Source: Modestobacter sp. VKM Ac-2977
GTDB taxonomy: Bacteria > Actinomycetota > Actinomycetes > Mycobacteriales > Geodermatophilaceae
Reading direction: 5' to 3'
Length of the DNA stretch: 64,000 bases
NCBI RefSeq assembly: GCF_026968045.1
Contig: NZ_JAPVBQ010000001.1
Coordinates: forward strand, 1,377,238 to 1,441,237
Under the pieces are notes generated by a model, which saw nothing but the letters and a program-made list of their open reading frames with translations, searched no databases and was not told the DNA's origin. Made by a program: the position numbers and the translations under genes. Positions 4,326 through 14,813 of the stretch are shown piece after piece (the first letter of the stretch is position 1; each line of letters opens with the position of its first letter).

Positions 4326-4946
4326 GTGACCAACGCACCGACCCGGGTCCTCATCGCTGAGGACGAGGCCCTCATCCGCCTCGACCTCAAGGAGATGCTG
4401 GAGGAGGAGGGCTACGTCGTCGTCGCTGAAGTCGGCGACGGCCAGGCTGCCGTCGAGCAGGCGCAGCTGCTGCGCCCCGACCTCGTCGTCCTCGACGTCC
4501 AGATGCCCGTCCTCGACGGCCTGGCCGCGGCCGAGCAGATCGCTGCTGCGCGCATCGCGCCGGTGATCGTGCTGACCGCGTTCAGCCAGCGGGAGCTCGT
4601 CGAGCGCGCCCGTGACGCCGGTGCGATGGCCTACCTGGTCAAGCCGTTCTCCAAGAACGACCTGGTGCCCGCGATCGAGGTGGCGGTGGGCCGCTTCCAG
4701 GAGATGCACGCGCTGGACGCCGAGGTGAGCGACCTCAAGGAGCGGCTGGAGGCCCGCAAGGTCGTCGAGCAGGCGAAGGGGCGGCTCATGTCCGAGCGGG
4801 GCATGACCGAGGCCGAGGCGTTCCGCTGGATCCAGCGGACGGCGATGAACGAGCGCACCTCGATGAAGGCCCTGGCCCAGGTGATCCTGGAGACCGACGC
4901 CCAGCCGACCGGGGACAGCAGTCCGACCTCTCCCGCCGGCTCCTGA
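4326..4946 (+). CDS. pdtaR: Two-component response regulator with ANTAR RNA-binding output domain
   Basis: 206 aa. N-terminal receiver domain, residues about 6-120, with acidic pocket E12/D13, phospho-acceptor D57 (LVVLDVQMP) and K106 (VKPFSK). A short coiled linker leads into an ANTAR domain at about 130-190 (VVEQAKGRLM, then EAFRWIQRTAMN). ANTAR proteins bind paired hairpins in nascent RNA and prevent transcription termination. The closest known counterpart is mycobacterial PdtaR (Rv1626), which is also near polA and rpsA. Its kinase PdtaS is not in this window. GTG start chosen because it sits at the expected start of a leaderless transcript. Confidence 0.93.
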   Translation: MTNAPTRVLIAEDEALIRLDLKEMLEEEGYVVVAEVGDGQAAVEQAQLLRPDLVVLDVQMPVLDGLAAAEQIAAARIAPVIVLTAFSQRELVERARDAGAMAYLVKPFSKNDLVPAIEVAVGRFQEMHALDAEVSDLKERLEARKVVEQAKGRLMSERGMTEAEAFRWIQRTAMNERTSMKALAQVILETDAQPTGDSSPTSPAGS

Positions 4947-5171: not shown

Positions 5172-6497
5172 ATGCGCACAGGCACGTTTGCCCGCGCGAC
5201 CGCCCTCTCCGGTGCTGCCCTGCTCGCGCTGACCGCCTGTGGCGGCAGCGACGAGGGCGGCGGCACCGCTGACGGCGCGAGCGGCGAGAAGCTGGTCAAC
5301 GTCTACGGCACCGACGGCAACATGGGCAACGCCCTGGGTGAGGACTTCTCGGACGAGGGTGCGCTCGTCGGGATGAGCGGCACCACGCCGCTGACCGACC
5401 TCTCCGGCGACTTCACCGACCGGCTGCTCGCGGTCGACCCCGACCTGCAGGACTACAACTACGCCGGTGAGACCTACGACGCCGTCATCCTGACCGCGCT
5501 CGCGGCCCAGGCCGCCGGCAGCACCGAGGCCACGGTCTTCGCGCCGTACATCAACGGGCTGACATTCGGTGGCGAGACCTGCGAGACCTTCACTGCCTGC
5601 AAGGCGATCATCGACGCCGGCGGCAACGTCGACTACGACGGTGTCAGCGGGCCGCTGAGCTTCGCCGAGGCCGGGGAGCCGGCCGAGGCCAGCTTCGGGA
5701 TCCTCCAGTTCGGCGAGGACAACCTGCTCGCCGACGACGACACCGAGTTCGTCATCGCGGGTGACGCGGCCAACGCCGCCACCGACGAGGGTCCGCCCTA
5801 CGCCCCAGCGGGTGCCACGGGCGACCCGCTGGTGATCGGCACCCTGCTGCCGCTGACCGGGAACCTGGCCTTCCTCGGCCCGCCGGAGGTCGCCGCCGCT
5901 GAGCTGGCGGTCAACGAGATCAACGAAGCCGGTGGCGTGCTCGGCCAGCCGGTGCAGCTCATCGAGGGTGACTCCGGTGACGCCTCGACCGACACCGCGA
6001 CCCAGACCGTCGACCGGCTGCTGCAGTCCAACGTCGACGCCATCGTCGGTGCCGCCTCGTCCGGGGTGAGCCTCACGGTCATCGACAGCATCACCCAGGC
6101 CGGTGTCCTGCAGATCTCCCCGGCGAACACCTCCGACCAGTTCACCGAGTACGCCGACAACGGGCTGTACTTCCGCACCGCGCCCCCGGACACGCTGCAG
6201 GCCCGCGCGCTGGCCGACCTGATCGCCGAGGACGGCAACAACACCGTCGGCATCCTGGCGATCAACGACCCGTACGGCACCGGCCTGGCCGAGAACACCC
6301 GGGACAACCTGGTCGCCGGCGGTCTGTCCGAGGACAGCATCAAGTACGTCACCTACGACCCGCAGGCGGCGAACTTCGACTCCGAGGTCCAGCAGATGGT
6401 CGACTTCAACCCCGACGCCGTCGTGGTCATCGGGTTCGAGGAGTCCTCGCGGATCATCCAGGGCCTCAACGCCCAGGGCATCGGGCCCCAGCGCTGA
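5172..6497 (+). CDS. Branched-chain amino-acid ABC transporter substrate-binding lipoprotein, circularly permuted
   Basis: 441 aa exported lipoprotein. ATG 5172 begins a short positive N terminus, a hydrophobic stretch and a lipobox LTAC (Cys23). The mature protein belongs to the LivJ-like type I periplasmic binding family, but its parts are in swapped order. Residues about 40-190 (VYGTDGN, YAGETYDAVILTALAA, GVSGPLSF) are what normally forms the C-terminal third. A linker rich in Asp/Ala/Pro occupies about 190-216. Residues 217-441 (LVIGTLLPLTG, AVNEINEAGGVLGQP, VGAASSGVS) are the canonical N-terminal part, ending at GIGPQR where a normal protein would continue. Total length is normal. It probably feeds livHMGF, encoded convergently 0.6 kb away. 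No frameshift is visible. Confidence 0.9.
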   Translation: MRTGTFARATALSGAALLALTACGGSDEGGGTADGASGEKLVNVYGTDGNMGNALGEDFSDEGALVGMSGTTPLTDLSGDFTDRLLAVDPDLQDYNYAGETYDAVILTALAAQAAGSTEATVFAPYINGLTFGGETCETFTACKAIIDAGGNVDYDGVSGPLSFAEAGEPAEASFGILQFGEDNLLADDDTEFVIAGDAANAATDEGPPYAPAGATGDPLVIGTLLPLTGNLAFLGPPEVAAAELAVNEINEAGGVLGQPVQLIEGDSGDASTDTATQTVDRLLQSNVDAIVGAASSGVSLTVIDSITQAGVLQISPANTSDQFTEYADNGLYFRTAPPDTLQARALADLIAEDGNNTVGILAINDPYGTGLAENTRDNLVAGGLSEDSIKYVTYDPQAANFDSEVQQMVDFNPDAVVVIGFEESSRIIQGLNAQGIGPQR

Positions 6498-7111: not shown

Positions 7112-7999
7112 TCACTGGGCCTTGGCGAGGGTCCCCAGGTAGAGCTCGATGACCTTCGGGTCGTTCATCAGCGACTTGCCCGTGTCGGTGTAGGCGTTGC
7201 GGCCCTGGTCGAGCACGTAGCCACGGTGACAGATCTGCAGGCAGCGACGGGCGTTCTGCTCGACCATGATGATCGACACCCCGGTGGCGTTGATCCGCCG
7301 GCAGCGGATGAACACCTCGTCCTGGAGCACCGGGGAGAGGCCGGCGGAGGGCTCGTCCAGCAGCAGCACGGAGGGGTCCATCATCAGCGCGCGGCCCATC
7401 GCGACCATCTGCCGTTCGCCACCGGAGAGGGCGCCCGCCTTGCCCTTGCGGCGGTCACCGAGCAGCGGGAACAGCTCGGCGACGTAGTCGAAGCGCTCCT
7501 TGAACGTCTTCGGCCGCAGGTAGACACCCATCTGCATGTTCTCCTCGATGGTGAGCGAGGGGAACACGTTGTTGTTCTGCGGGACGTAGCCGACGCCGAG
7601 CGAGACCAGCCGGTGGGCCGGGGCCGACGTGATCTCCTCCCCGCGCAGCGTCACCGCGCCGGACCGGACCGGGATCAGCCCGAACAGCGCCTTGAGCAGC
7701 GTGGACTTGCCGGCGCCGTTGGGGCCGATGATCCCGACCAGCTCGCCGTCGGCGAGGTAGAAGTCGCACCCGTTGAGGATGTTGACGCCGGGGACGTAGC
7801 CCGCCACCAGGTCGTCGGCGCGCACCAGCGCCCCCTCGGCGAGGCGCAGGTGCTCCTCCCGGGTGGCGGCCTTCTCCGCGGGGGACATGGCCGCCGCGGT
7901 GCCGGGGCCGGGGTCGTCGGCGACCGGCCGGTCCTGCTCGGACTCCGGAACGAGGAACCTCCGGTCCTCCGGCGGACCTGGTACGTCCACGGTGCTCAT
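7112..7999 (-). CDS. livF: Branched-chain amino-acid ABC transporter ATP-binding protein LivF
   Basis: 295 aa cytoplasmic ATPase of the high-affinity branched-chain amino-acid importer. After a 58-residue charged N-terminal extension not found in short LivF proteins comes the ABC domain: Walker A GPNGAGKST at 92-100, Q-loop around 141, signature LSGGE at 191-195, Walker B LLLDEP at 212-217, and a late switch histidine region near VEQN. The extension (ending MSPAEKAATREEHLRLAEG) might instead mean an internal start, but the upstream ATG overlaps the livG stop as ATGA, which favours it. Last gene of livHMGF. Confidence 0.93.
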   Translation of the reverse strand: MSTVDVPGPPEDRRFLVPESEQDRPVADDPGPGTAAAMSPAEKAATREEHLRLAEGALVRADDLVAGYVPGVNILNGCDFYLADGELVGIIGPNGAGKSTLLKALFGLIPVRSGAVTLRGEEITSAPAHRLVSLGVGYVPQNNNVFPSLTIEENMQMGVYLRPKTFKERFDYVAELFPLLGDRRKGKAGALSGGERQMVAMGRALMMDPSVLLLDEPSAGLSPVLQDEVFIRCRRINATGVSIIMVEQNARRCLQICHRGYVLDQGRNAYTDTGKSLMNDPKVIELYLGTLAKAQ

Positions 8000-9030
8000 C
8001 GTCCTGTCCTCCTCTTGCGGCCCTGCTCGGAGCTGATGACGTCCTCGCGCCGGGCACGTTCGGCGGCCTGGTCCTCGGCGAGGAAGCGGTCTTCCTCCTC
8101 CTCGGTCAGGGGGGCGTCGTGGTGTGCGCCGAGGTAGGCGTCGACGACGGCCTTGTTCTGGCTGATGGAATCCGGGGCGCCCTCGGCGATGACCTTGCCG
8201 GCGGCCATGACGACGACCCAGTCGCTGATGTCCCGGACGACGTCCATGTCGTGCTCCACGAAGATGACCGTCATGCCCTCCTCGCGGAGGTCCTTGACGT
8301 GGCCCAGCAGGCTCTGGGTCAGGGCCGGGTTCACCCCGGCCATCGGCTCGTCGAGCATCACCACCTTCGGCTCGCTCATCAGGGCGCGGGCCATCTCCAG
8401 CAGCTTGCGCTGACCGCCGGACAGGCTGCCGGCGAAGTCGTCCTTCTTGGCATCGAGCTTGAACCGCCGGAGCAGGTCCATCGCGCGCTCGGTGTTGGCC
8501 TTCTCCTGCGCCCGCCAGGTCCCGGGCACGAGCGCGCGCAGGAAGCTCTCCCCGGTCTGGCCCTGGGCTCCGAGCAGCATGTTCTGCAGCACGGTGAGCC
8601 GGGACAGCGCCTTGGTCAGCTGGAAGGTGCGCACGACGCCGAGCCGGGCGACCTGGTGTGGGCTGAGCTTGCCCAGGTCGCGGCCGTCGAACGACCAGGT
8701 GCCGGTGTTGGGCTGGTCGAACCCGGTGAGCAGGTTGAACAGCGTCGTCTTGCCGGCACCGTTGGGCCCGATGAGCCCGGTGATCCCGCCGCGCTGGATC
8801 TCCAGGTGGTCGACCGACACCGCGGTCAGGCCGCCGAAGGTGCGGGTGACGTGGTCGACGACGATCGCCGGGTCGGGCTTGGCGACGCCGACCTCCCAGG
8901 GGACGTCACGGAGGGCGGTCTGGGCCACCCGGCGGGGCTCGGCGCGGGTGGCACCGGCGGCCGGGCCAGTGGTTCCGGTGTGGTCGGGCTGCGCGGCGTG
9001 CGCGCCGTGGGGGGCGGGGTCAGCGGGCAT
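7996..9030 (-). CDS. livG: Branched-chain amino-acid ABC transporter ATP-binding protein LivG
   Basis: 344 aa second ATPase of the Liv importer. An Ala/Pro-rich N-terminal extension of about 53 residues precedes the ABC domain with Walker A GPNGAGKTT at 88-96, signature LSGGQRKLLEMARAL, Walker B VVMLDEP and the LivG-type FVEHDMDVV switch region. The C terminus carries an acidic Glu-rich stretch and ends in a basic run. The start overlaps the livM stop by 11 bp and the stop overlaps the livF start by 4 bp, indicating tight operon coupling. Confidence 0.93.
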   Translation of the reverse strand: MPADPAPHGAHAAQPDHTGTTGPAAGATRAEPRRVAQTALRDVPWEVGVAKPDPAIVVDHVTRTFGGLTAVSVDHLEIQRGGITGLIGPNGAGKTTLFNLLTGFDQPNTGTWSFDGRDLGKLSPHQVARLGVVRTFQLTKALSRLTVLQNMLLGAQGQTGESFLRALVPGTWRAQEKANTERAMDLLRRFKLDAKKDDFAGSLSGGQRKLLEMARALMSEPKVVMLDEPMAGVNPALTQSLLGHVKDLREEGMTVIFVEHDMDVVRDISDWVVVMAAGKVIAEGAPDSISQNKAVVDAYLGAHHDAPLTEEEEDRFLAEDQAAERARREDVISSEQGRKRRTGR

Positions 9031-10018
9031 CGAGCATCACCTCTCGTCGGTCACCGAAGATGCCCTGGGGCCGGAACACCAGCAAAAGCATGAGCCCGAT
9101 CCCGACCAGCACGTAGCGCAGCTGCGCGACGTCGGTCGCAGAGAGCAGCTCTGCGGGGATGACCCCGTTGGAGATCAGCGAGCGCAGCCCGGTGTCGGCG
9201 AACTGCAGGATGAACAGCAGCAGCATCGACCCGATGACGGGCCCGAGCACGCGGGCGGCCCCGCCGAGGATCAGCGCCCCGTAGGCCAGGAAGGTGTTGG
9301 CGTTCTGGTACTGGTCGGGGATCGCCGAGCCGGTGCCGACGGCGTAGATCATGCCGCCGAAGGCGCCGAAGATCCCGCCCAGGACCAGCGCCTGCATCTT
9401 GTAGGCGTAGACGTTCTTGCCCAGCGAGCGGACGGCGTCCTCGTCCTCCCGGATGGCCTTCACCACCCGGCCCCACGGGGCGCGCATGAGCGCCCAGACC
9501 AGCAGCGAGCACAGCGCCACCAGGATCCATCCGACGGTGACGACCCAGAGCTCACCGCCGCTCCAGGTGGTGCCCAGCAGGTCGTACCGCCGCGCGGTGT
9601 CCCAGGGGGCCAGCGCGATGAAGTCGCGGTTGAACGCCGACAGGCCGCGGGTGCCGCCGGTGACCGGGGTGGCGGAGACCGATCGGAAGACCAGTCTCAA
9701 CCCCTCGGCCGTGGCGATGGTGACGATGGCGAGGTAGTCGGCCCGCAGGCGCAACGTGGGCAGGCCCAGCAGCAGGGCGAGGACGACGGCGGCGAGCACG
9801 CCGACGATGACCCCGACCCAGAAGGGCAGCCCCCACAGGCTCACCGAGATGGCGATGCCGAACCCGCCGAGCATGGCGAAGGCGATCTGGCCGAAGTTGA
9901 GCAGCCCCGTGTACCCGAAGTGCACGTTGAGGCCGATGGCCAACAGGGCGAAGAAGACCGCCTGGAAACCGAAGAACGCCTTGCCCGCGATGGCGAACGC
10001 GTTGATGAGGTCGGCCAT
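9020..10018 (-). CDS. livM: Branched-chain amino-acid ABC transporter permease LivM
   Basis: 332 aa integral membrane protein of the LivM family with eight to ten hydrophobic segments. Family blocks are present: GLLNFGQIAFAMLGG near residues 37-51, LPTLRLRADYLAIVTIA near 86-102, the cytoplasmic EAA-like loop ending GRVVKAIREDEDAVRSLGKN that contacts the ATPases, and the C-terminal LLLVFRPQGIFG. It forms the translocation channel with LivH. The livH stop lies three bases upstream of its ATG. Confidence 0.93.
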   Translation of the reverse strand: MADLINAFAIAGKAFFGFQAVFFALLAIGLNVHFGYTGLLNFGQIAFAMLGGFGIAISVSLWGLPFWVGVIVGVLAAVVLALLLGLPTLRLRADYLAIVTIATAEGLRLVFRSVSATPVTGGTRGLSAFNRDFIALAPWDTARRYDLLGTTWSGGELWVVTVGWILVALCSLLVWALMRAPWGRVVKAIREDEDAVRSLGKNVYAYKMQALVLGGIFGAFGGMIYAVGTGSAIPDQYQNANTFLAYGALILGGAARVLGPVIGSMLLLFILQFADTGLRSLISNGVIPAELLSATDVAQLRYVLVGIGLMLLLVFRPQGIFGDRREVMLDAR

Positions 10019-10021
10019 CGG

Positions 10022-11389
10022 TCAGCCGATCCTGGCGCGGCTGCCCAGGATGCCCTGGGGACGGACGACGAGGATGACGATCAAGAGGAGCAGCCCTCCG
10101 ACGTACTTCATGTCATTCGGGATGACGAGGGTGGACATCTGCACGAAGACACCGACGATCAGGCTGCCGAGCAGGGCGCCGTAGGCCGTCCCGAGCCCAC
10201 CGAGGGTGACCCCGGCGAACATCAGCAGCAGCAGCCGGAAGCCCATGTCCCACTGGACCTGGTCGGAGAGGCCGAGGAGCACACCGCCGAGCGCAGCGAG
10301 CGCGCCGCCGAGCACCCACACGAAGAGGATGACCCGGTTGACGTCGATCCCGGAGGACGCGGCCAGGTCCCGGTTGTCCGACACCGCCCGCATCGCCTTG
10401 CCGATCTTGGTGCGCTGCAGCATGAGCGCCACGAGGACCAGGACGACGACCGCGATGACGATCGAGGCGACGTCGCGGTCCTGCAGGGTGAAGGGGCCGT
10501 AGCTCTTCGCCCGCTGACCCTGGTAGTCGGCGTAGGGGTTGGAGAAACCGCCGTAGAAGATCTGGTAGGTGTAGCGCAGCGCCAGGGACAGGCCGATCGA
10601 GACGACCAGCGCCGCGATGAGCCCGGTGCCGCGGCGCCGCAGCGGCCGCCAGATGGCCAGCTCGTTGAGGGCACCGACGACCCCGCCGACCACCATCGCC
10701 AGCAACGCCGCCGGGATGAGCGGCACGCCGCCCTGCACGTTGATGTACCAGGCCGCGATGGCGCCGATGGTGACCAGTTCGCCGTGCGCGAAGTTGGTCA
10801 GCCCGGTGGTGCCGTAGATCAGCGACAGGCCGACTGCTGCCATGGCGATCAGCAACCCGAACCGCAGGCCGTCGACGAACAGCTGGACGGCCCGGATGGT
10901 GCCGCCCCCGTCGTTGCGACTGCCGTCGTTCAGGCCGATGTTCACCGGCTGGGCACGCCCGGAGTCGACGGTGACGGTGCGGCTGGGCTCGCCGTTGACC
11001 TCGACACCCTCCGGCAGGTCGTCGGGGTCGACGCTCACGACGTACTGGCCGGCGCCGGGGAGGTCGACCTCCCACCGGCCGTCCTCGCCGGTCTCGACCG
11101 TGTCCACGATCTCGCCGTCCGGCGTGGCCACCTCGACGGTGACGCCCTCGATCGGGCCGCTCAGGCTGGTCTGCAGGGTGCCGCGCACCTGCTCGCCCGC
11201 CTCCGCCGCGGAGGCGACGCCGGGCACCAGGGTCGCGAAGGCCATCCCGAAGGCGGCGACGAGCAGGGCAAGGACCAGCGGACGGCGAGGGCTGCGCCAC
11301 CGGCGTGCGCTCCGCCGGGGTGCTGACCGGTCCTCCCGGGTGGAGCTGCGTTCCCCGTACCTCGCGGCACGGTGGGGCGCGTGCGTCAC
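10022..11389 (-). CDS. livH: Branched-chain amino-acid permease LivH with N-terminal exported beta-sandwich domain
   Basis: 455 aa, about 150 longer than a standard LivH. Residues 1-36 are basic. Residues 37-62 form a hydrophobic segment ending VASAAEA, which looks like a signal peptide or anchor. Residues about 66-150 resemble a carboxypeptidase-regulatory / SpaA-like beta-sandwich (GPIEGVTVEVATPDGE, GRWEVDLPGAGQYVVSVDP). Residues about 165-455 are the normal permease (GLSLIYGTTGLTNFAHGEL, EAA loop KIGKAMRAVSDNRDLAASSGID, C-terminal VVRPQGILG). First gene of the operon. The role of the extra domain is unknown; contact with the binding protein is possible but inferred. Confidence 0.9.
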   Translation of the reverse strand: MTHAPHRAARYGERSSTREDRSAPRRSARRWRSPRRPLVLALLVAAFGMAFATLVPGVASAAEAGEQVRGTLQTSLSGPIEGVTVEVATPDGEIVDTVETGEDGRWEVDLPGAGQYVVSVDPDDLPEGVEVNGEPSRTVTVDSGRAQPVNIGLNDGSRNDGGGTIRAVQLFVDGLRFGLLIAMAAVGLSLIYGTTGLTNFAHGELVTIGAIAAWYINVQGGVPLIPAALLAMVVGGVVGALNELAIWRPLRRRGTGLIAALVVSIGLSLALRYTYQIFYGGFSNPYADYQGQRAKSYGPFTLQDRDVASIVIAVVVLVLVALMLQRTKIGKAMRAVSDNRDLAASSGIDVNRVILFVWVLGGALAALGGVLLGLSDQVQWDMGFRLLLLMFAGVTLGGLGTAYGALLGSLIVGVFVQMSTLVIPNDMKYVGGLLLLIVILVVRPQGILGSRARIG

Positions 11390-11441: not shown

Positions 11442-11570
11442 GGGGATCGACCTGCTGGGACACACTGTGACCCTTCTGCGACACGCCGATGTGCTACTCG
11501 CCGGTAGTCGGGGAGCGACGTGTCGGCCCGGCGCCTCCCGGGATCGGGCCGCCGGTGCGGGCCTGCGGGG

Positions 11571-11978
11571 TCAGCGGGCGGGGCGGATCAGGCAGGTGAG
11601 CCGTGCGCTGGCCGTCGGCCGGCCGGCCTCGTCGCTCACCGAGATCAGGAAGGTCGCCAGCGTGCGGCCACGCCGGACCGGCGTGCAGACCGCGGTGACC
11701 AGGCCGGAGGTGGCCGCCCGCAGGTAGCTGGCGTTCAGCTCGATGCCGACCACCGTGCCGCCCGGTCCGGCGTGCAGCATCGCCGCCCACGACCCGATGC
11801 TCTCGGCCAGGGCGCAGGTGGCCCCTCCGTGCAGCAGGCCGAAGGGCTGTTCGTTGCCGGCGACCGGCATGGTCGCCACCAGTCGGTCGGGGGTGTAGTC
11901 GGTGATCTGGATCCCGAGCTTGTCGTCCAGGGGTCCCTGGGTGTCGGACGGCAGCCAGTCCGGACGCGCGGTGGTCAT
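11571..11978 (-). CDS. PaaI-family hotdog thioesterase
   Basis: 135 aa single-hotdog acyl-CoA thioesterase of the PaaI / YbgC superfamily. The signature GLLHGGATCALAES at about 47-60 carries the HGG motif and the expected acidic catalytic residue. The substrate is not predictable; relatives act on aromatic or fatty acyl-CoA. Length is normal. Its ATG is about 85 bp from polA, which is divergent, so the two share a short promoter region. It is distinct from the double-hotdog TesB at the start of the window. Confidence 0.85.
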   Translation of the reverse strand: MTTARPDWLPSDTQGPLDDKLGIQITDYTPDRLVATMPVAGNEQPFGLLHGGATCALAESIGSWAAMLHAGPGGTVVGIELNASYLRAATSGLVTAVCTPVRRGRTLATFLISVSDEAGRPTASARLTCLIRPAR

Positions 11979-12048
11979 CCGCGCACCGTAGCCACCGGGC
12001 GGTGCCTGGTCGGGTCGTGCACCGGCCCGGACCGTCGGTGGGCGCCCC

Positions 12049-12054
12049 TAAGCT
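12049..12054 (+). promoter_or_regulatory. Putative -10 element for polA
   Basis: TAAGCT ends 8 nt before the polA ATG at 12063, so the transcript would have almost no leader. No ribosome binding site is visible at the expected distance. Confidence 0.45.
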
Positions 12055-12062
12055 CGTGGTCG

Positions 12063-14813
12063 ATGTCCGCACCGGTGAGCTCCCCAGCCAGCAGCACAGT
12101 GTCCGCCTCCGACCCGGCCTCCGGGGTCCGTCCGCGGCTGCTGCTGCTCGACGGCCACTCGCTGGCGTACCGGGCCTTCTTCGCCCTCCCGGTGGAGAAC
12201 TTCTCGACCACCACCGGGCAGCCGACGAACGCCGTCTACGGCTTCACGTCGATGCTGATCAACGTGCTGCGCGACGAGCAGCCCAGCCACCTCGCGGTGG
12301 CCTTCGACGTCAGCCGGAAGACCTTCCGCAGCGAGATCTACGCCGAGTACAAGGCCAACCGCGCGGAGAGCCCGACCGACTTCCGCGGCCAGGTGAGCCT
12401 GGTGCAGGAGGTGCTCGGTGCGCTGCACGTGCCGGTGATCACCGCGGAGAACTACGAGGCCGACGACGTCATCGCCACCCTCACCGTGCAGGCGGTCGAG
12501 CAGGGCATGGACGTGCTCATCTGCACCGGGGACCGGGACGCACTGCAGCTGGTCAACGAGCACGTGACGGTGCTCTACCCGCGCAAGGGCGTGTCGGACC
12601 TGACCCGGTTCACGCCGGAGGAGGTGGAGGCCAAGTACGGCCTCACCCCCACCCAGTACCCCGACTTCGCCGCGCTGCGGGGCGACCCGAGCGACAACCT
12701 GCCGAACATCCCGAGCGTGGGGGAGAAGACCGCCGCCAAGTGGGTGCGTGAGTACGGCTCGCTGGACGCACTGGTCGACCAGGTCGACACGGTCAAGGGC
12801 AAGGTCGGGGAGAAGCTGCGGGAGCACCTCTCCTCGGTGCTGCAGAACCGCCGGCTGACCGAGCTCGACCGCGCCGTCCCGCTCGAGGTCGGGCCGCAGG
12901 ACCTGGCCGTCCAGCCCTGGGACCGCAACGAGGTGCACACCCTCTTCGACAACCTGCAGTTCCGGGTGCTGCGCGACCGGCTCTTCGCCACTCTTGCCAC
13001 CCCGGAGCCGGAGGTCGACGGCGGCTTCGAGGTGACCGCCGACCGGCTGGCCCCGGGTGAGCTGGCCGGGTGGCTCACCGCGCACGCGCGCACCGGGCAC
13101 ACCGGTGTCGTCTTCCGGGGCACCTGGGGCCGCGGTGTCGGCGAGCTCGCCGGCCTCGCGTTGGCCGCCGCCGACGACCACGCCACCTTCGTCGACCTGG
13201 GTCCCGACCTCGACACCGCCGACGAGCAGGCACTGGCCGGCTGGCTGGCCGACCCGGCGACCCCCAAGGTCGTGCACGAGGTCAAGGGCCCGCTGCTGGC
13301 GATCTGGAGCCGTGGCTGGGACTTGCAGGGCATGGTCAGCGACACCGCGCTCGCGGCCTACCTGGTCAATCCCGGGCAGCGGTCGTTCGACCTCGGCGAC
13401 CTGGCGGTGCGCTACCTGCGTCGCGAGCTCAAGGACGCCGCGGAGCCGGAGGGCCAGCTGACCCTCGACGGGCTCGGGCCCTCGGAGGAGGACGTCGCCG
13501 CGGCCGCCGCGCATGCCGACGTCCTCAAGGCGGTGGCGGTCAACGACCTGTCCGACGCCCTGGAGCAGGTGCTCGGGCAGAAGGGCGGCGACCAGCTGCT
13601 CGGGGACATCGAGCTGCCGCTGACCCGGGTGCTGGCGGCCATGGAGCACCGGGGCATCGCCGCGGACCTGGACTCCCTGCGCGAATTGCAGCGCGAGTTC
13701 GCCGCCGCGGTGACCGAGGCGGCGGACGAGGCCTACGCGGTCATCGGCAAGGAGATCAACCTCGGCTCGCCCAAGCAGCTGCAGGCGGTCCTCTTCGACG
13801 AGCTCGGCCTGCCCAAGACGAAGAAGAACAAGACCGGGTACACCACCGACGCCGAGGCCCTGACCTCGCTGCTGGCCTCCACCGGTCACCCGTTCCTCGA
13901 GCACCTGCTGCGGCATCGGGACGTCACCCGGCTGCGCACCGTCATCGACGGGCTGATCCCGATGGTCGACGAGGTGGGGCGGGTGCACACCACTTACCAG
14001 CAGACGATCGCGGCGACCGGACGGCTCTCCTCGACGGACCCGAACCTGCAGAACATCCCCATCCGCAGCGCCGAGGGGCGCCGGATCCGGCAGGCATTCG
14101 TCGTCGGCGCCGGCTACGAGTCGCTGATGACCGCCGACTACAGCCAGATCGAGATGCGGATCATGGCCCACCTGTCCGAGGACGCCGGCCTGATCGAGGC
14201 GTTCACCTCCGGGGAGGACCTGCACTCCTTCGTCGCCTCGCGGGCGTTCGACATCCCGATCGAGCAGGTCGACCCGGAGATGCGCCGGCGGATCAAGGCG
14301 ATGAGCTACGGCCTGGCCTATGGGTTGAGCGCCTACGGGCTGTCCCAGCAGCTGCGGATCACGCCGGAGGAGGCGCGCGGGCAGATGCACGCCTACTTCG
14401 AGCGCTTCGGCGGCATCCGGGACTACCTCGACGGGGTCGTGGACGACGCCCGGCAGACCGGCTACACCGAGACGACCCTGGGCCGCCGCCGCTACCTGCC
14501 CGACCTGACCAGCGACAACCGGCAGCGCCGGGAGATGGCCGAGCGGATGGCGCTCAACGCCCCGATCCAGGGGTCGGCCGCCGACGTCATCAAGGTGGCG
14601 ATGCTGAACGTGGAGCGGGCCATCGCGGCCGAGGGCCTGAGCTCACGGATGCTGCTGCAGGTCCACGACGAGCTCGTGCTCGAGGTGGCACCGGGGGAGC
14701 GGGAGACCCTCGAGGCCCTGGTGCGCCGGGAGATGGCCGGCGCGGCGCAGCTGTCGGTGGCGCTGGAGGTCTCCGTCGGCTTCGGCACCAGCTGGGACGA
14801 CGCCGCCCACTGA
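12063..14813 (+). CDS. polA: DNA polymerase I
   Basis: 916 aa enzyme for Okazaki-fragment processing and repair synthesis. Residues about 25-300 form the 5'-3' exonuclease (LLLDGHSLAYRAF, AVYGF, YEADDVIATL, CTGDRDALQL, GDPSDNLPNIPSVGEKTA). Residues about 320-540 form a 3'-5' exonuclease-like domain without the metal-binding acidic residues, as is usual in actinobacteria. The polymerase domain follows with motif A TADYSQIEMR, motif B RRIKAMSYGLAYG and motif C VHDELV. Tyr in SYG occupies the position of Phe762 of E. coli Pol I, a substitution that reduces dideoxynucleotide discrimination. ATG chosen because the family N terminus begins right after it. Confidence 0.95.
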   Translation: MSAPVSSPASSTVSASDPASGVRPRLLLLDGHSLAYRAFFALPVENFSTTTGQPTNAVYGFTSMLINVLRDEQPSHLAVAFDVSRKTFRSEIYAEYKANRAESPTDFRGQVSLVQEVLGALHVPVITAENYEADDVIATLTVQAVEQGMDVLICTGDRDALQLVNEHVTVLYPRKGVSDLTRFTPEEVEAKYGLTPTQYPDFAALRGDPSDNLPNIPSVGEKTAAKWVREYGSLDALVDQVDTVKGKVGEKLREHLSSVLQNRRLTELDRAVPLEVGPQDLAVQPWDRNEVHTLFDNLQFRVLRDRLFATLATPEPEVDGGFEVTADRLAPGELAGWLTAHARTGHTGVVFRGTWGRGVGELAGLALAAADDHATFVDLGPDLDTADEQALAGWLADPATPKVVHEVKGPLLAIWSRGWDLQGMVSDTALAAYLVNPGQRSFDLGDLAVRYLRRELKDAAEPEGQLTLDGLGPSEEDVAAAAAHADVLKAVAVNDLSDALEQVLGQKGGDQLLGDIELPLTRVLAAMEHRGIAADLDSLRELQREFAAAVTEAADEAYAVIGKEINLGSPKQLQAVLFDELGLPKTKKNKTGYTTDAEALTSLLASTGHPFLEHLLRHRDVTRLRTVIDGLIPMVDEVGRVHTTYQQTIAATGRLSSTDPNLQNIPIRSAEGRRIRQAFVVGAGYESLMTADYSQIEMRIMAHLSEDAGLIEAFTSGEDLHSFVASRAFDIPIEQVDPEMRRRIKAMSYGLAYGLSAYGLSQQLRITPEEARGQMHAYFERFGGIRDYLDGVVDDARQTGYTETTLGRRRYLPDLTSDNRQRREMAERMALNAPIQGSAADVIKVAMLNVERAIAAEGLSSRMLLQVHDELVLEVAPGERETLEALVRREMAGAAQLSVALEVSVGFGTSWDDAAH

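Follow-up and report, generated by a model that had tools for sequence, protein, structure and literature searches.

A 64,000-nucleotide stretch of Modestobacter sp. VKM Ac-2977 (contig NZ_JAPVBQ010000001.1, positions 1,377,238 to 1,441,237; hereafter the window) carries, next to livFGMH transporter genes, an open reading frame (ORF) for a substrate-binding protein (SBP) of the LivJ type whose canonical blocks stand in swapped order. An earlier note on this DNA, made from the sequence alone, had proposed that this lipoprotein is a natural circular permutant; the ORF, frame, lipobox and Cys23 agree with that description. The gene is composed of the following parts, with block edges accurate to a few residues:

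5172-6497, plus strand: SBP lipoprotein ORF, 441 residues, with verified frame, lipobox and Cys23
5172..5237, plus strand: signal peptide, residues 1-22, with the lipobox LTA/C at its end, assigned by pattern without a signal predictor
5238..5294, plus strand: predicted lipidated Cys23 and low-complexity spacer up to residue 41, a putative tether assigned from the sequence and a low predicted local distance difference test score (pLDDT)
5295..5762, plus strand: canonical C-terminal block (C-block), residues 42-197, here N-terminal, starting at the VNVYGTDGN strand
5763..5828, plus strand: linker of about 22 residues (198-219) between the old C-terminus and the old N-terminus
5829..6497, plus strand: canonical N-terminal block (N-block), residues 220-441, and stop codon, assigned from Pfam and PDB alignments

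The chain runs from the signal peptide through the C-block and the linker to the N-block, which terminates at GIGPQR, the point where canonical chains run on into the YGTDGN/YLVDGN strand. According to the alignments, the C-block includes the position of Glu226 of LIVBP, which is Asp48 in the window protein. The earlier note had correctly seen a linker that joins the old termini, and its bounds are refined here from residues 190-216 to 198-219. The new termini, which it had placed in lobe II near the hinge, do fall in the second lobe and can be assigned more precisely to the lobe of LIVBP residues 121-248 (lobe boundaries from PMC13103812), between the equivalents of Tyr202 and Glu226. The C-block also contains an invariant cysteine pair, mature C115 and C121 (window 5580-5582 and 5598-5600), that is possibly a disulfide; the equivalent residues are invariant in canonical A4.

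Evidence for the permuted order

The families matching the window protein were Peripla_BP_6, ANF_receptor and Peripla_BP_5. In native order, the Peripla_BP_6 match was confined to residues 220-439 and to profile positions 2-217 of 343, with 128.8 bits (cut-off 31.7). Rotation of the chain in silico produced one collinear stretch, residues 5-347 against profile positions 2-320 of 343, with 144.6 bits, and the ANF_receptor match of the rotated chain covered 4-350 of 353. This gain, together with the same order in full-length matches of 45-93% identity in other genomes, is more than chance would give. The best-matching Liv proteins in the PDB aligned, near their own N-termini, to the native window chain from about residue 220 onward. 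The alignment of the rotated chain with 4gnr spans 10 to 302 of 353; the reach differs among the solved Liv chains, that of 4n0q ending at 217. The cut in the window protein lies after the whole N-part, at about residue 221 of 3ipc.

The swap of blocks relative to canonical LivJ-type proteins was also evident when the two halves of the protein (C-part, residues 40-195; N-part, residues 214-441) were used as separate queries. In the single ORF of the canonical relative L034, the N-part matched at 92-313 with 60% identity and the C-part at 312-460 with 45% identity, whereas in the window protein and its close relatives C comes before N. AlphaFold2 modelled the native order as one confident fold (pLDDT 91.6, predicted template modelling score 0.89), as the earlier note had anticipated; within mature residues 1-20 the block-mean pLDDT was 45 and 60. 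The permutation in the window lipoprotein is real and its order is as encoded, and the protein is predicted by this model to be a circularly permuted type I SBP fold.

Conservation and two types of cut

Some match to the window protein was found in 52 of 59 genomes, its own included. A wider search with a 14-row permuted alignment gave full-span permuted matches in 46 of the 51 Geodermatophilaceae genomes listed, which bears out the expectation that the order is kept in the family. Across the order, 92 of 298 genomes had such matches (46 of the own family, 45 of family f16 and one of f13), which were also found, elsewhere, in 11 of 394 genomes of the class and 8 of 396 of the phylum, as well as in 6 of 148 in the order of G952, 9 of 120 in the family of G449 and 3 of 119 in the order of G547; the genome samples overlap and the first pass scored only some candidates per genome, so that these counts are lower bounds. 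Most own-family members share the start and lipobox of the window gene.

We screened 238 loci for ORFs of at least 250 residues scoring above 150 bits with the N-part and above 60 bits with the C-part. The resulting 195 different rows comprised 109 canonical proteins, 76 of one permuted form (type A, that of the window) and 10 of another (type B, including L167 by virtue of its 23-residue tail). Type A chains end 0-4 residues past the N-part and start at the YGTDGN/YLVDGN strand. Type B chains keep this strand C-terminally, as 21-23 extra residues, and start at the LEGMKGT segment, so that their cut lies about 20 residues later. The gap between the block edges given by the hidden Markov models was 30-41 residues in the 86 permuted rows, among which frames and lipoboxes were intact.

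The named loci, which are the best 80 of at least 563 confirmed stretches, contain 82 ORFs, scored as 38 type A, 20 type B and 24 canonical; the 38 include L308, from a metagenome-assembled genome (MAG) of Acidimicrobiaceae, which is truncated by the contig end and hence untyped. Named type A members belong to Geodermatophilus, Blastococcus, Modestobacter, Klenkia, Marmoricola and Nocardioides, with two from Streptomyces, one from Nonomuraea and several from MAGs, including some Actinomycetes MAGs. All 20 named type B members are from MAGs; 14 are assigned by name to Acidimicrobiia, and the titles of the other 6 are less specific, one being 'Actinomycetes'.

Probable independent origins

Trees were built on rotation-normalised alignments. 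A quick tree of 129 rows, picked from the 195 by dropping most own-family rows, short canonical rows and near-copies, required 6 changes of form. The same number was obtained from a 106-row quick tree, lacking 23 distant canonical rows, and from a careful tree of 85 rows made up of the thinned named rows (L308 and L316 left out) and 32 picked unnamed rows. In none of 200 bootstrap trees of the careful set did type A, or type B, form one group. Separate trees of the N and C halves needed 7 and 6 changes among the A, B and canonical forms, respectively, and held nearly the same permuted groups together.

Approximately unbiased (AU) tests, in which the groups were defined after a tree had been seen, so that the p-values are weakened, rejected a united type A (p=7.8e-80), as well as the union of f41 with f49/f39 (p=0.0097), of the Nocardioidaceae with MAG type A (p=0.00086), and of the own lineage with f16 and the Nocardioidaceae (p=5e-5). 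The union of the own lineage (with f13) and f16 was not rejected (p of 0.72 and 0.555), the constrained tree scoring better both times. The rejections of a united type A imply, under these tree models, at least three origins of that form, and type B would have arisen once or twice. As judged from these alignments and trees, the permutation is recurrent and has two breakpoints, which goes beyond what reading a single sequence could show.

Three type A copies, L302 (Nonomuraea), L307 and L310 (Streptomyces), have their last 12 residues identical to those of the Marmoricola copy L297 and have at least livF nearby; L302 groups with L297 in the 85-row tree. Their SBPs look like products of horizontal transfer. 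Plasmid searches for the named permuted relatives revealed no clear case, the sole record covering more than 80% of the query being from Nonomuraea gerenzanensis, where the match consisted of two joined pieces.

The liv locus and its neighbours

The genes flanking the SBP gene in the window are:

4326..4946, plus strand: ANTAR-domain response regulator, the upstream synteny marker
7112..7999, minus strand: LivF-type ATPase, convergent with the SBP gene
7996..9030, minus strand: LivG-type ATPase
9020..10018, minus strand: LivM-type permease
10022..11389, minus strand: LivH-type permease with an N-terminal CarboxypepD_reg-like domain (31.4 bits, just below the Pfam cut-off of 32.3)
11520..14813, plus strand: ORF containing a putative DNA polymerase I gene (polA), a synteny marker whose true start is internal to the ORF

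A predicted export signal and livFGMH neighbours, as for a Liv-type SBP, are present in the window, and no canonical SBP copy was found in its genome. The order of ANTAR regulator, SBP, convergent livFGMH and polA recurs around many canonical and type A SBPs. Beside livFGMH the SBP is canonical in most actinobacterial loci seen and permuted in several lineages. Among the named Geodermatophilaceae loci, 23 of 26 have liv genes nearby and the remaining three are short or at a contig edge. In families f41 and f49, canonical and type A SBPs occupy the same position, and both forms occur within each of the genera g105, g117, g175 and g160. Type B loci mostly have the SBP next to liv genes. Genome G258 has a canonical SBP at its liv locus and a permuted one elsewhere, and G025 has a second permuted copy without liv genes nearby.

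Several further features of these loci were recorded. The LivH of the window has a signal-like N-terminal segment and the CarboxypepD_reg-like domain ahead of its membrane part, as do most Liv loci inspected, of either form. This beta-domain was considered as a partner that co-evolved with the permutant and rejected, being present in 17 of 20 canonical and 15 of 16 permuted loci with livH (two of the three canonical loci lacking it are truncated by the locus start). In the type B pair L147 and L149 (f68, g282) the SBP gene and livH have a head-to-head arrangement; in most other loci inspected SBP and livF are convergent. At L247, a second, weakly similar SBP gene (9269-10537) adjoins the permuted one. 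A promoter and terminator scan found nothing, and the neighbours of one f16 orphan copy were uninformative.

Interpretation and alternative explanations

We consider it very probable that the window gene encodes the substrate-binding lipoprotein of LivFGMH and that it is a natural circular permutant of a Peripla_BP_6 (LivJ-type) protein that arose in place, with several origins. According to this model, the old termini became fused through the linker of about 22 residues, and the new termini were opened in the lobe of LIVBP residues 121-248, immediately ahead of the strand with the Glu226-equivalent acid. We infer that the permutant would retain the action of a Venus flytrap and supply LivHM with an amino acid, probably a branched-chain one, and that its lipid anchor would pull on the second lobe rather than the first. 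The permuted form would have arisen beside the liv genes, at least three times with the type A cut and once or twice with the type B cut if the tree models hold. The most likely route would be a tandem duplication, after which the N-part of the first copy and the C-part of the second were lost in frame. Tandem canonical SBPs do occur at liv loci (L239, L240, L241 and L242, with three copies in L337), which suggests that duplication followed by partial deletion fits.

Several observations weigh against this interpretation. A search within 3 kb of 186 permuted loci, a count that takes in repeats and loci with short flanks, yielded neither an intermediate, fused or half-deleted, nor a remnant of an N-part or C-part; two fragment candidates were dismissed, L263 as an overlapping ORF in another frame and L247 as the separate SBP described above. 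A united type B was compatible with the AU test in one set (p=0.068) and not in another (p=0.0126). The ANTAR and polA genes were not found in the inspected flanks of type B loci, where locus orthology is accordingly weaker; they are also absent from the inspected flanks of some canonical loci (L156, L255, L256). No liv genes were found near eight inspected f16 type A copies (L131-L134, L161, L033, L128, L129), and these copies need not serve a LivFGMH transporter. Phe in place of LIVBP Tyr202 may point to a ligand other than Leu, Ile or Val. Finally, over 22 loci with all five genes, the NG86 ratio of nonsynonymous to synonymous substitution rates (dN/dS) was 0.48 for the SBP compared to 0.11-0.25 for livF, livG, livM and ANTAR, with median identities of 0.75 and 0.83-0.93, respectively.

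The dN/dS values alone are misleading: when SBP divergence was compared with LivG distance over 105 loci, canonical SBPs a given LivG distance apart had diverged to about the same extent. At LivG identities of 0.85-0.90, the N-block identity was 0.775 for type A and 0.793 for canonical proteins, and that of the C-block 0.693 and 0.706 (150 and 15 pairs). At 0.80-0.85 the type A value was the lower one (0.709 versus 0.774; 36 and 7 pairs), and at 0.75-0.80 it was the higher one (0.665 versus 0.618). At 0.60-0.75, where the pairs are drawn from separate type A lineages, it was lower by about 0.05. For the most part, this rate seems normal for this SBP and does not point to decay. An assembly error, a frameshift or a decaying gene, to which the faster evolution of the SBP relative to its neighbours might have pointed, is already refuted by the conservation of the order, and we assign it a negligible probability: the order stands, with intact frames and lipoboxes, in many independent assemblies, several of which consist of just one or two contigs; over most of the range of LivG distances permuted proteins diverge about as much as canonical ones; and the predicted fold is confident. 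The earlier note's argument against decay is upheld, and the agreement among so many separate assemblies serves in place of read coverage as evidence on the two joints.

The low-complexity linker between the blocks would also suit a fusion of two half-genes from different sources, but this is very improbable, since both halves match the same canonical proteins, as in L034, and the permuted groups recovered by the N tree are almost those of the C tree, without strong, well-supported conflict. An unlikely, though more serious, alternative is that the permutation happened once, long ago, and that the canonical order was then regained repeatedly, or that the permuted gene was transferred and recombined with the canonical copies already present, such that the trees overstate the number of origins. 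The type A cuts of separate lineages do lie within a few residues of each other, transfer seems to occur (the shared C-terminal 12 residues of L302, L307, L310 and L297), and the own lineage and f16 are compatible with one clade. Yet the AU tests reject a united type A, the half trees still need their 7 and 6 changes, and a return to canonical order would take another permutation, one that re-creates the original termini. Slightly less likely again is that the permutant acts as an orphan sensor or scavenger rather than as the LivFGMH partner; the f16 copies and the second G025 copy are consistent with such a role, but the permutant adjoins livFGMH in the window and in most of the type A and B loci inspected elsewhere, and the window genome is without a canonical copy.

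A bolder extension of in-place permutation, which we regard as possible but doubtful, is repeated adaptive re-tethering. Separate actinobacterial lineages would have opened the same orthologous lipid-anchored SBP on one side or the other of the Glu226 strand, the two positions permitted, which would shift the membrane anchor to another part of the flytrap and thereby alter how the protein docks at LivHM or releases its ligand there. If so, the canonical, type A and type B proteins would form a natural series with essentially one pocket.

To our knowledge, the case for a natural circular permutation usually rests on comparing two distant proteins. Here, canonical and permuted relatives occupy one liv locus, in places within one genus, with two cuts and several inferred origins, amounting to a natural experiment in the rewiring of protein chains. 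The tandem duplicates may represent the starting state, and the route, the allowed cut sites and the functional cost become directly testable. The proteins bear on how a membrane anchor may attach to a transporter binding protein, and have a consequence for annotation, because in native order roughly half of the protein escapes the Pfam model.

Comparison with known systems

The window protein shares its fold blocks, export signal and liv gene neighbours with canonical Liv/HAAT SBPs (Peripla_BP_6; LivJ 1z15-1z18, 4gnr, 3ipc), from which it differs in its swapped blocks, its termini in the other lobe and its extra linker. Ligand contacts of LIVBP are Ser79, Ala100, Thr102, Tyr202 and Glu226 (PMC13103812). 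Judging from alignments and a LivJ sequence, the Ser, Ala and Thr equivalents appear to be kept, the acid at Glu226 is Asp, and Tyr202 is replaced by Phe, which is also found in canonical kin.

The earlier note knew of no described natural permutation in a Liv binding protein. We likewise found no permuted Liv or HAAT protein in the open-licence literature searched, for which some result lists were seen in part, but a permutant of a type I SBP has been published in another family. TpMglB-2 (Tp0684), which with its relatives is termed 'Type Ic / Cluster Bc', is described as a natural circular permutant in the glucose-binding MglB family (PMC4990184). By that account it is, like the window protein, a lipid-tethered type I SBP that has been permuted in nature and has an extra lobe crossing, and its authors propose a tethering adaptation. 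In TpMglB-2, however, both termini are in the N lobe and the first three N-lobe strands of EcMglB come last, whereas the window protein is cut in the other lobe; independent origins are not mentioned in the sections consulted (PMC4990184). TpMglB-2 was not among the PDB matches listed for the window protein (60 of 83); it is also missing from the VIA list, but that list is confined to the top Foldseek chains and its silence carries no weight. Binding proteins have reportedly also been circularly permuted, or had their halves permuted, in the laboratory (for example PMC6335823, PMC9815098), and these engineered forms, like the window protein, indicate that such folds tolerate rewiring. While natural permutation of a type I SBP was already known from TpMglB-2, what appears to be new here is natural permutation in a Liv-type SBP.
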